From positions 1-21,411 of the IMG/VR virus record IMGVR_UViG_3300020404_000119: a stretch of DNA of 21,411 nt. The stretch is one strand, 5' to 3'. Shown piece by piece: positions 5,106 through 18,781 of this stretch. The position numbers were made by a program, and so were the translations under genes. Origin of the DNA: a virus. Numbering within the stretch: the stretch's first letter is position 1; every line of letters begins with the position of its first letter. The notes beneath the pieces are model-generated. The model was not told the DNA's origin. It made no database searches and was given only the letters and a program-made list of their open reading frames with translations.

Positions 5106-5720
5106 TCAAGAAAGTAAAGCTCTCATCTTTTCATTAGAGTAGCAATCGGCAACTAGATGTATTCTATCAACGTCACTAGTATTTCGAACAGCATGAGCCT
5201 TTGTAACATCTGTATAGTAATAATGTCCAGATTTTAAAATGTGTTCTGTGCCTTCTTTGTCTTTTGTATTTTCATATAAAGTAAATACCACATTGTCATT
5301 TGTTCTAATTGGCATATGTATTCTGATTATATCACCATCATCAAAACCAATATCTTTGTCTATCTTGTCTGTATGTTTACCAATAACTTTACCTGCTTGT
5401 AATCTCATAAATCTAACTCTCTCAAACTCACATGGCAGTTTTTTAAGCATATCTAATATAGGTTTCATTGTTGTAATTACTGATAGTGTAGTCCATTGTA
5501 ATTTAGTATCTATGTCTACTGAACTCTTTAATACACCAGGTTTTAATATGTCTAAAGGGTGATTACCATATCCGTGTAAAGATACAGCGTCCCAACCACC
5601 TTTTGCATATTTTGTTTTTACGTTCTTAAAGTCCATACCATCGAGATTTGCAGCCACACTATGAAGTATTGAAATGTCGTTGTATGGTTCTATTGATAAT
5701 TCTTTTATTACAGGTCTCAT
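5106..5720 (-). CDS. 2OG-Fe(II) oxygenase, aspartyl/asparaginyl beta-hydroxylase-like
   Basis: The product has 204 residues. The iron facial triad is visible as H116-x-D118 (GKHTDK) and H176 (KAHAVRN), followed by R186 (DRIHLV), placed to bind the 2-oxoglutarate carboxylate. The surrounding pattern (GKHTD..., RIHMPI, GHYYYTDVTKAHAVRN) matches the Asp/Asn hydroxylase family, whose known members hydroxylate protein side chains. Phage members have unknown substrates. It overlaps the upstream GNAT gene by 4 bases (ATGA), so the two are probably translated together. A modifier of host or virion protein is an inference. Confidence 0.8.
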   Translation of the reverse strand: MRPVIKELSIEPYNDISILHSVAANLDGMDFKNVKTKYAKGGWDAVSLHGYGNHPLDILKPGVLKSSVDIDTKLQWTTLSVITTMKPILDMLKKLPCEFERVRFMRLQAGKVIGKHTDKIDKDIGFDDGDIIRIHMPIRTNDNVVFTLYENTKDKEGTEHILKSGHYYYTDVTKAHAVRNTSDVDRIHLVADCYSNEKMRALLS

Positions 5721-16094: not shown

Positions 16095-16102
16095 TATTTA
16101 TA
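16095..16102 (-). promoter_or_regulatory. T4-type late promoter before the tail-tube-like gene
   Basis: Perfect TATAAATA on the minus strand, the box recognised by gp55. Only 5 bases separate it from the ATG at 16089, so the late message would be leaderless. It lies 29 bases downstream of the terminator that closes the AlkB-like unit, giving this gene its own transcription start. Confidence 0.7.
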
Positions 16103-16131: not shown

Positions 16132-16161
16132 AAAAAAACCCCTCAACTTTGCGTCAAGGGG
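16132..16161 (-). terminator. Intrinsic terminator after the AlkB-like gene
   Basis: CCCCTTGAC and GTTGAGGGG on the minus strand pair over 9 bases (two G-U pairs) around loop GCAAA, followed by seven T (16138-16132). It lies 24 bases after the stop codon of the AlkB-like gene and before the late promoter of the next gene. Confidence 0.85.
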
Positions 16162-16185
16162 TATAAAGATATTACTTCTTTTTTA

Positions 16186-17259
16186 TTATAGGAATTTACT
16201 GTTTATGATTTGAAGTTCAGCTTCTGATGCCTCTTCTTCATCCCATTTTTGTAATTGTTTTTCCATATACTTATGAAACAATGGTGGGATTAAAGCTAAT
16301 GCGAATAATGTAAAGTAACCATTACCACAATTAGGTGCCCCAACTTCATCTAACTCCCAGAAGTGTGTTTCACCTCTATCATGATGGTCTGCCTGTCTTC
16401 CTATTTCTATAAAGAACCAACTTGAGAATAATGTAGAATTATCCCATGAATGTCTATAGTCGATTGGCGAACCTTGTTCTCTAACTAAACCATAATGCTC
16501 TAAGTAGTTTAGTGCTTCTAATTCAAAGTTAGAAATTAACCATAATAGTGCCATACATGCAATCCCTGTCCATGCACCTGCATACCAGAATAATGCGATT
16601 GTAGGTAATGACATTGCATAACCTCTAATCCATCTGTTTTGATATGATAAGAAAGGTACACCTAATCTTTTTAATCTTTGTTTTTCCATTGTGTATAGGA
16701 ATTTACTTTGACCAAAATAAGATTTAGGTAAGTGTGCATATAAACTTCTACCTCTTGGTGCTGTTGCTGGGTCGTTTTCACAACCTAACTCTAAGTGGTG
16801 ATTGTATACATGTGCATAACAGAAATGTGCAGAGCCACTTAATCCCATCATCCATCTTGCGATTAAGAAACTAAATCCTTTAGTGTGTGCAAGTTCATGT
16901 CCGTAGATAATTCCTATACCAGCAAATATACCAGACGACACAACTGCACCTAAGAGTTCAGAACCTGCCATACCATTATATATTTGATATGCAAGTACAC
17001 ATTGTAGTGCTATGAATACAGGTAACATTAAATACATGACTGAATTTTGCAACCATGGTATACCTAATGTATCACCTTCTTCATCAAATCCAGCACCCAT
17101 AGTTTGTTTGGTGTATAAAGTATCAATTATGATACCTGCACCTAACAAGAATACTCCTGTCCATACCCAAGGCCCACCTGCTAATACACCGAATAACGTT
17201 GCAAGTATTAATAGTGGAGCAATTAGATATCGTACATTGATAAGAAATTTCTTCATCAT
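16186..17259 (-). CDS. AlkB-like integral-membrane di-iron hydroxylase
   Basis: Encodes 357 residues. All histidine-box regions of alkane 1-monooxygenase are present: HELAH (H121, H125), HVYNHH (H150, H154, H155) followed by the family's ENDPATA, NYLEHYGL (H255), HSW (H270) and the last box RQADHH (H292, H293). The position that is His in the usual R-H-S-D-H-H is Gln289 here (codon CAG). Hydrophobic stretches at about 12-48, 72-94, 102-120, 215-244 and 313-328 fit the usual membrane helices. AlkB enzymes hydroxylate the end of alkanes using electrons from rubredoxin; relatives (XylM type) act on other substrates. No rubredoxin gene is in the window, so host electron carriers would be needed. 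Substrate unknown: alkane, fatty acid or membrane lipid. It has ATG ATG after GGGAG. It forms a one-gene unit between gp23 and a tail gene, probably an acquired metabolic gene. Confidence 0.9.
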   Translation of the reverse strand: MMKKFLINVRYLIAPLLILATLFGVLAGGPWVWTGVFLLGAGIIIDTLYTKQTMGAGFDEEGDTLGIPWLQNSVMYLMLPVFIALQCVLAYQIYNGMAGSELLGAVVSSGIFAGIGIIYGHELAHTKGFSFLIARWMMGLSGSAHFCYAHVYNHHLELGCENDPATAPRGRSLYAHLPKSYFGQSKFLYTMEKQRLKRLGVPFLSYQNRWIRGYAMSLPTIALFWYAGAWTGIACMALLWLISNFELEALNYLEHYGLVREQGSPIDYRHSWDNSTLFSSWFFIEIGRQADHHDRGETHFWELDEVGAPNCGNGYFTLFALALIPPLFHKYMEKQLQKWDEEEASEAELQIINSKFL

Positions 17260-17315: not shown

Positions 17316-17344
17316 ATACTATTTATATCATATCAGTATGTCAA
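17316..17344 (-). promoter_or_regulatory. Overlapping sigma-70-like and late promoters of the AlkB-like gene
   Basis: On the minus strand TTGACA (17344-17339) is followed after 17 bases by TAGTAT (17321-17316), four of six matches. Within the spacer is a perfect late box TATAAATA (17327-17320). So the gene could be read by host polymerase early and by the gp55 holoenzyme late. It is the only promoter region between the gp23 terminator and the gene. Confidence 0.6.
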
Positions 17345-17403: not shown

Positions 17404-17432
17404 AAAAAAAAAGGGCGCCGAAACGCCCTTTT
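17404..17432 (-). terminator. Strong intrinsic terminator after gp23
   Basis: AAAAGGGCG and CGCCCTTTT pair over 9 bases around a 6-base loop (17418-17423), followed on the minus strand by nine T (17412-17404, partly in the stem). It lies 23 bases after the gp23 stop and isolates the head operon from the AlkB-like unit. Confidence 0.9.
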
Positions 17433-17455
17433 CTATATATCGAGATGAATCGAAA

Positions 17456-18781
17456 TTACATGATGTTTGTAACTTTAACTCTTCTGTAGTATAGGTTTTG
17501 TTCACCAGCAGCAACTGCGCCTGAGTTATCAAGTGCACCAGTTCCGTTTGATGTAGCAAAAGGATTTTGAACCATTCCGTATCTAGTTTTAAATCCAATT
17601 TTTGGTTGGAAACTGTCTTGACCAACTGCACGAACCATTTGTAATGGAACGTATGGGCAATAGAACAGACCAGAATCGTAAGGTGAAGTTCCTTTGTAAC
17701 CAATTACATAGTACTGACTTGCAGATACGTTAGCAGCATATGGGTCAACATACACTTTAAACTTACCATTAAGAACACCAGCAAAAGTATTACCTGTGTC
17801 ATCAACATTTAAGTTAGAGTTTAACGCAGGAGCGTAATCTAAAACACCAGCCATTTGTAATGCAGAAGCAACATCAGCAGAACAAATAATGATGTTCCCT
17901 TTACCTCTACGAGTTTGTTGACCGATAGCGTTAGCGTCTCTCTCTAGTTGATATAATAATCCTTTGAATTTCTCAACTGACCATCTACCGTTTGAGTCAG
18001 TATCTAAATCGAAGATACCAGCAGTAGTTGTGTTCACTTGAGCACCTGCTTTTGCGTGACCGTAAATAGTTCTAACTACTTCACGGTTAATCTCAGCAAG
18101 AATTTCACTTGAAAGGATGTTTGCAAGTTCTGTCTCTGCGTCTAAACCATGGATTGCTTTTAAGTCTTGTGCAAGTTCCATTGTGTATTCTGCTTTTAGA
18201 GCACGTGATTTAGCAGTAACAGTTACTTTGTCGATTGAGAATGCCATTTCAGCAAACTCATCTGTGCCATCACCTAATGTTTCTGCCTGAGCAGTTGTGA
18301 AACCAGAACCAGTTGTGTAAGTTCCAGCAGAAGGTGAATCGTTTAATGTTGCAGGGTTAGTACCAGCCTGAGCGTCAGGGGAACCTGAACCTCCAGCGGC
18401 ATCTCTACTTGAGAAGTCTGAATCTGCTTCGTTGAATAGTGCTTCTGCACCAGCCTGTGAACCAAATCTTGATTTCATAGCGAAGATTAAGCCTGTTGGA
18501 CCAGTCATTGGTTGTACACCACAAATATCGTAAGCGATAAGATTAGGCATAGCACGTCTAACTAGTGATATTAAAACTGGATCAAAGTTATCAACAGAAG
18601 AACCAGTTGCGTTTGTTGGTGCAGCCTCAGCCATAAAGCTTCGGTCTTCCCTAACTGATTTCTCTTGGTTTTCTAAAATCACAGTAGTTACAGCTCTTTT
18701 ATAAGCATCTTCGATTTTTGGCAAATCTGGATGTTCTAGGACTGGCTGCCACTTTTCCTGTAAGTTTTCAGTAAGATACAT
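17456..18781 (-). CDS. 23: Major capsid protein gp23
   Basis: The product has 441 residues. The segment FMAEAAPTNATGS contains the likely prohead-protease cleavage after E52, followed by VDNFDPVLISLVRRAMPNL and IAYDICGVQPMTGPTGLIFAMKSRFGS, which are hallmark gp23 sequences of marine T4-like phages. The C-terminal part (ASQYYVIGYKGTSPYDSG, LFYCPYVPLQMVRAVGQDSF, KTRYGMVQNPF) is equally typical. The protein assembles the head shell and is cut by gp21 during maturation. It is shorter than T4 gp23 (about 520 residues), as in cyanophage-type members. The ribosome site AAGGAGAG is strong, which suits a very abundant protein. A strong terminator follows. Confidence 0.97.
   Translation of the reverse strand: MYLTENLQEKWQPVLEHPDLPKIEDAYKRAVTTVILENQEKSVREDRSFMAEAAPTNATGSSVDNFDPVLISLVRRAMPNLIAYDICGVQPMTGPTGLIFAMKSRFGSQAGAEALFNEADSDFSSRDAAGGSGSPDAQAGTNPATLNDSPSAGTYTTGSGFTTAQAETLGDGTDEFAEMAFSIDKVTVTAKSRALKAEYTMELAQDLKAIHGLDAETELANILSSEILAEINREVVRTIYGHAKAGAQVNTTTAGIFDLDTDSNGRWSVEKFKGLLYQLERDANAIGQQTRRGKGNIIICSADVASALQMAGVLDYAPALNSNLNVDDTGNTFAGVLNGKFKVYVDPYAANVSASQYYVIGYKGTSPYDSGLFYCPYVPLQMVRAVGQDSFQPKIGFKTRYGMVQNPFATSNGTGALDNSGAVAAGEQNLYYRRVKVTNIM

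Follow-up and report, generated by a model that had tools for sequence, protein, structure and literature searches.

Phage-borne metabolic genes and AlkB-fold enzymes are both known kinds. In the AlkB of Fontimonas (FtAlkB), one iron (Fe1) is held by His137, His141, His167, His172 and His314, and the other (Fe2) by His171, His272, His311 and His315 together with Glu271 (PMC10113152). The histidine at position 311 is reported to be invariant and needed in AlkB (PMC10110569), whereas front-end desaturases have a glutamine at the same position of a third box of the form QxxHH (PMC4404247). Hydrocarbon genes in viruses ("vHYDEG") were proposed by Ru et al. 2023, as cited in PMC13343209.

The window, by which we mean the whole 21,411-nucleotide stretch of viral DNA analyzed here, carries the following gene:

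16186..17259, minus strand: putative QxxHH-type AlkB-like membrane diiron oxygenase gene; ATG at 17259, 357 aa

The open frame is real and begins and ends exactly where a sequence-only reading of the window had placed it, on the minus strand, and the description of its product in that reading as an AlkB-type membrane diiron protein is borne out. Pfam finds PF00487 (FA_desaturase, 99 bits) alone in the 357 residues, with no cytochrome b5 domain, and among proteins of solved structure the sequence-level relatives are only the two Fontimonas AlkB entries, 8SBB (E 6e-30) and 8F6T (E 3.5e-27). The AlphaFold model (pLDDT 78.8, pTM 0.82) has the AlkB fold, matching AlkB by Foldseek (E 2e-12, TMq 0.81) and by VIA (Z 34.5 over 342 residues at 2.7 Å, with the next unrelated row at Z 11.2); judging from the model, AlkB is the only solved fold that the protein strongly matches. 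PHROGs and NCBIfam contain no family for the protein, and no BFVD entry matched the model at E 0.001 or better. Besides AlkB, the model (m0bb3f7c5672a) matches two chains of chloroplast FtsHi motor complexes, 8xks_K and 8xqw_M, at Z 10-11, a likeness that perhaps reflects a distant AlkB-like fold or a mere arrangement of helices.

Aligned with AlkB and XylM references, the protein keeps eight of the nine iron-ligand histidines of AlkB (H121, H125, H150, H154, H155, H255, H292 and H293), one short of the nine-histidine feature of AlkB alkane 1-monooxygenases. Glu254 is the equivalent of FtAlkB Glu271, and it is kept in most relatives, with Gly instead in the SAR86/OCS116 branch. The exception lies in box 3, RQADHH, where Gln289 stands at the place of the Fe2 ligand His311; the AlkB, XylM and Polaromonas fusion references all have histidine there. 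Every one of the 157 viral and cellular clade members scored by script has Gln at this first position, and two further cellular rows that the script misread (L133 and L137) both show RQCDHH. The sequence motifs quoted in the earlier reading are therefore all present, but the "full set" of histidine boxes that it claimed is not, because Gln289 replaces an Fe2-ligand histidine. We assume that the glutamine form is active, from its conservation and from the precedent of the front-end desaturases. The model has pLDDT under 50 in the active-site loops around boxes 2 and 3 (residues 156-161, 267-273 and 294-304), so the geometry at Gln289 is beyond judging from it.

The closest cellular relatives, 81% identical overall and about 90% over residues 90-353, belong to uncultured marine gammaproteobacteria, and the wider set of cellular carriers includes SAGs labelled Thiothrix, sponge symbionts (Porisulfidus), Thiodiazotropha, SAR86 and others. 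In a non-random sample of carrier genomes, SoxZ was found in 16 of 22 and rhodopsin in 10 of 22; the two genomes nearest the window's gene (G001 and G002) have rhodopsin, and SoxZ was seen in neither. The scan for relatives used the patterns WFFIEIG and GETHFWE, which favor the QxxHH clade and leave the interval of about 34%-52% identity unsampled. On a tree with a small reference sample, a 100/100 branch splits this clade from the AlkB, XylM and fusion references, placing the window protein in neither the AlkB clade nor the XylM clade with HxxHH. A loop of about 15-20 residues (at about window residues 94-96, relative to L083) is absent from most phage versions and present in the cellular relatives and in phages L061 and L064. 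Three sponge-symbiont loci (L094, L096 and L097) have, a few kb from the QxxHH gene, a second AlkB relative at 28% identity with box 3 RHADHH; in G003 the second relative is an open frame of about 818 aa.

In cellular genomes the AlkB-like gene is followed by a donor module, or the module sits elsewhere in the genome. Its members are a small Fer4_19-type ferredoxin (a Pfam assignment in L117, made by eye for the other loci), a GST-like protein, a small membrane protein and a reductase. The reductase has the same Fer2, FAD and NAD domains as XylA of pWW0 and is 37-40% identical to it; this XylA-type partner, as known for XylM, was found in the cellular relatives only. In the SAR86 and OCS116 relatives a lone [2Fe-2S] ferredoxin comes next. 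An MsrB-like gene (by eye) precedes the module in the nearest cellular genomes (L278-L280, L286), which may point to a connection with oxidative stress or with sulfoxides. The rubredoxin that had been suggested as partner finds no support: a motif search near the viral and cellular loci gave none, G001, G002 and G005 have none, and G004 and G006 have one each on contigs other than that of AlkB, all of these genomes being incomplete. Neither Fer2 nor rubredoxin occurs in the 24 viral records tested, which are mostly fragments, so that absence there proves little. With the XylA-like module conserved instead, the gene content makes a [2Fe-2S] reductase of this type the likely partner rather than rubredoxin. 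Since the viral records contain no donor, electrons would come from the host or from unassembled parts of the phage, and reliance on a host donor is most likely.

We think it probable that the gene is an auxiliary metabolic gene (AMG) for the catalytic membrane subunit of an XylMA-like, AlkB-fold diiron oxygenase with Gln in place of one His, which borrows the host's reductase late in infection. The phage would then make large amounts of this single subunit, which would insert in the host inner membrane and receive electrons that pass from host NAD(P)H to the FAD and then the [2Fe-2S] center of a XylA-like reductase, perhaps with the small 4Fe-4S ferredoxin as an intermediate between reductase and subunit. 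With O2, the subunit would oxidize a C-H bond of a hydrophobic substrate (a hydrocarbon, a terpenoid or an acyl chain), and this oxidation would sustain or redirect host metabolism. Cyanophages supply PsbA, and we liken the proposed supply of an AlkB-like subunit to theirs. As for the substrate, the XylA-like partner and the gene neighborhood of a Polaromonas relative would favor a hydrocarbon-like molecule; a lipid is possible, since the nearest cellular genes have FabA as a neighbor and box 3 has Gln, and alkanes are possible as well.

The strongest competing explanation differs in the substrate and is compatible with the borrowed-reductase oxygenase just described: the product could be a lipid- or fatty-acid-modifying enzyme, either a hydroxylase or a desaturase, that alters the host envelope. 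Cyanophages carry lipid desaturases, a point in favor of such an enzyme; among the matches that tblastn found in INPHARED at up to E 10, none was an annotated phage desaturase. The nearest cellular genes have FabA and a MerR-type regulator beside them, the commonest neighbors across 80 cellular loci include no obvious set of alcohol and aldehyde dehydrogenases, and QxxHH is the third-box form of the front-end desaturases (PMC4404247). We nevertheless consider a lipid enzyme rather unlikely, because the protein has the AlkB fold, which its authors report to be unlike that of SCD1-type desaturases (PMC10110569), because it has no cytochrome b5 domain and a XylA-like partner reductase, and because its highest-scoring plasmid relative among the matches listed, a ferredoxin-reductase-AlkB fusion of Polaromonas CJ2, lies in a hydrocarbon-type cluster with genes for a GMC oxidoreductase, an acyl-CoA ligase and an aldehyde dehydrogenase.

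An AlkB alkane 1-monooxygenase in the strict sense, coupled to rubredoxin and letting the host burn hydrocarbons, seems to us improbable. The fold and the Glu271 equivalent would suit it, and activity has been reported for an AlkB fusion that is coupled to ferredoxin (PMC8918992). Set against this are the exchange of an Fe2-ligand histidine for glutamine, a clade separate from AlkB at 100/100, and a rubredoxin that is near no locus by motif and in neither G001, G002 nor the viral records. Because the nine-histidine feature is incomplete and the protein falls outside the AlkB clade, we would not classify the gene as an alkane monooxygenase, although its product may still work like one.

The gene's surroundings are those of a T4-like phage, with the following features around it:

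17456..18781, minus strand: major capsid protein gp23, the upstream neighbor (PF07068, 496 bits; phrog_138)
17407..17434, minus strand: intrinsic terminator after gp23, a 12-pair hairpin followed by a T run
17320..17327, minus strand: T4-type late promoter motif TATAAATA, which begins 68 nt upstream of the AlkB start codon
17264..17268, minus strand: Shine-Dalgarno-like GGGAG, 4 nt upstream of the AlkB start codon, read directly from the sequence
16138..16162, minus strand: intrinsic terminator after AlkB, a 10-pair hairpin followed by a T run
16095..16102, minus strand: late promoter motif 13 nt upstream of the tail gene's start codon
15490..16089, minus strand: tail tube/tail completion (gp3-like) protein, the downstream neighbor (phrog_45)

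The position between gp23 and a tail gene, as earlier described, stands. The tail gene is 48.5% identical to the gene directly after gp23 in Pelagibacter phage Mosig, and "tail completion" (gp3-like) is its better name because Mosig has another tail tube gene beside the sheath. Beyond it lie a phrog_30607 protein, UvsY, more genes and a UvsW-like helicase, and beyond gp23 on the opposite flank are the gp22 scaffold and the gp21 protease. The window also encodes, at 5106-5720, an aspartyl/asparaginyl beta-hydroxylase domain protein (PF05118); a protein with such a domain is part of the pelagimyophage core (PMC7029224).

The window has three exact copies of the late motif, each of them intergenic and on the coding strand. 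With one mismatch allowed, the total for this short, AT-rich motif is not above chance, so the argument for a promoter is one of conserved position. The motif stands 67-71 nt before AlkB in all distinct contigs of two of the three lineages that have the gene in this slot (A and C), and in most of lineage B the distance is 119-152 nt; of random 150-base windows of the gp23-slot loci, 3-7.5% contain the motif. Among other genes of the same loci, 83 of 194 have the motif; since late structural genes make up most of this control set, the motif is a mark of late genes at large and not of AlkB alone. Downstream of gp23, each distinct contig of the three lineages has a hairpin terminator, the stems differing in sequence, and AlkB is followed by a second terminator in lineage A and in most but not all of B and C. 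The terminators and the usual late motif make the AlkB gene a self-contained monocistronic cassette. From these sequence features we infer late expression in the T4-like gp23-slot phages, and the late-infection role suggested earlier gains support from this dedicated motif, as motif evidence. Late expression is not universal, because the motif is absent in the gp41-slot and L065-L080 types of phage. In almost all gp23-slot contigs that extend as far as the tail completion gene, this gene has a late motif of its own 13 nt ahead of the ATG; with that spacing, transcription from a T4-type promoter would begin at the ATG or right beside it, which suggests a leaderless mRNA.

A place beside capsid and tail genes, a late motif and one altered iron ligand might also fit a structural, lysis or superinfection-exclusion membrane protein that has no catalytic role. 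We judge this very improbable, since the remaining metal ligands are strictly conserved in the viruses and in the cellular relatives alike.

The isolates whose gp23 is closest to the window's, at 75% identity, are Mosig and Methylophilales phage Melnitz, and in these gp23 and the tail gene are adjacent, 89 and 95 bases apart, with the AlkB site empty; HTVC008M has one small ORF there. The order gp23-AlkB-tail gene is repeated in contigs from four metagenomes (L001-L004) with AlkB identities of 94-99%. These independent contigs with the same junctions exclude chance and chimerism, and together with the empty site they uphold the earlier claim that the gene is phage-borne. A bacterial contaminant or assembly chimera, brought to mind by INPHARED "phage" AlkB matches that are in fact bacterial chromosome, can be dismissed with near certainty, because the junctions recur in independent contigs, three lineages share the slot, the GC content of the gene is close to that of its flanks and the viral records include long ones.

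Relatives of the window's AlkB are carried by well over 100 viral contigs, the records being mostly fragments. The wider scan showed the gp23-AlkB-tail slot to be occupied in two T4-like lineages beyond the window's own, one with gp23 about 78% identical to the window's (L194, L202, L207, L209-L226 and others) and one with gp23 about 74% identical (L247-L260). Elsewhere the gene lies beside T4-like neck genes (L005-L014, and by eye L062), near a helicase loader and an exonuclease (L015-L020), or after an apparent gp41-type helicase (L195-L204), and it occurs in a phage with a phrog_2 terminase (L074) and in one with another terminase-like gene (L064, by eye). We rejected a reading of L195-L204 as capsid, AlkB and two tail genes; by eye the neighbors look like the gp41-type helicase and 2OG-oxygenases, and the slot is thus a different one. 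Scanning the viral sequences with the SAR86-type protein turned up nothing. Genes for an IscU-like (NifU_N) protein, uroporphyrinogen decarboxylase, PRPP synthase and a class 3 lipase lie next to or near AlkB in L055-L060, L043/L048/L050/L068, L034 and L026. We rejected as a phage precedent the alkB1 of "Acinetobacter phage MD-2021a" in INPHARED, whose surrounding DNA is bacterial chromosome; in that record (CAKLQH020000011.1) an isc operon and siderophore genes surround alkB1, and CAKLQF020000009.1 has the same match.

On the tree of all groups, the viral label requires 12 changes, at least 8 of them forced by well-supported branches, and transfer between hosts and phages has therefore been repeated. 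Phage L202 pairs with cellular L141 at 100/100, and phage L244 with cellular L139 at 99/83. Viral groups nest within the cellular ones, and most transfers therefore appear to have gone from host to phage. The capsid relatives of the window phage infect SAR11 and OM43, whereas its AlkB relatives are gammaproteobacterial. The gene combines a probable host origin, a place in a phage genome and, at dN/dS values of 0.04-0.15 (NG86), purifying selection, as is expected of an AMG.

Our literature search found no paper describing a phage AlkB of the QxxHH kind, nor, any overlap with vHYDEG set aside, the QxxHH clade, its repeated capture or its fixed cassette. Two apparent precedents fell away: the "alkB" of an OM43-phage paper is a DNA-repair protein in the reference list, and the pelagimyophage "stearoyl-CoA desaturase" is, judged by name, of another family. 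At the Pfam level the clade is visible only as "fatty acid desaturase", and its AlkB-fold enzymes have an iron site that breaks the nine-histidine rule. Phages rarely keep a metabolic gene unless their yield benefits; repeated capture, the same capsid-side slot in three T4-like lineages and the late motif point to a reaction consuming O2 and electrons that would matter late in the infection of marine gammaproteobacteria, which suggests that oxidizing some hydrophobic molecule helps the phage at that stage. More tentatively, it is possible that the QxxHH clade is a distinct oxygenase, not an alkane hydroxylase, of importance to marine sulfur-oxidizing, often rhodopsin-bearing gammaproteobacteria, and that phages have captured its subunit many times, in T4-like phages as a late cassette, making it a counterpart of psbA.

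Compared with known systems, the window protein is closest in structure to AlkB (FtAlkB, 8SBB; FtAlkBG, 8F6T), sharing its fold at Z 34.5, eight of nine ligand histidines and the equivalent of Glu271; it differs in having Gln289 for His311, in an identity of 23-25%, in its separate clade and in that the rubredoxin partner was not seen. With XylM (XylMA, pWW0) it shares full-length homology at 28.7% and, through its cellular relatives, the XylA-type reductase, but XylM has NHxxHH with histidine, and Gln where the QxxHH clade and AlkB have Glu254. The Polaromonas CJ2 plasmid fusion of ferredoxin-reductase, ferredoxin and AlkB (33.9%, E 3e-42) uses the same type of donor; its parts are fused and it has histidine at the place of residue 289, whereas in the QxxHH clade the donors are encoded separately and the residue is Gln. 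Front-end desaturases likewise have Gln first in the third box, yet they have another fold and a cytochrome b5 donor as a fused domain, which the window protein does not have, and the likeness is probably convergent. The phage AMGs psbA, pmoC and amoC resemble the gene described here in that a membrane catalytic subunit is carried by the phage while the rest comes from the host, with repeated exchange between the two; the enzyme is a different one, and the AlkB-like gene stands as a fixed cassette between gp23 and the tail gene.
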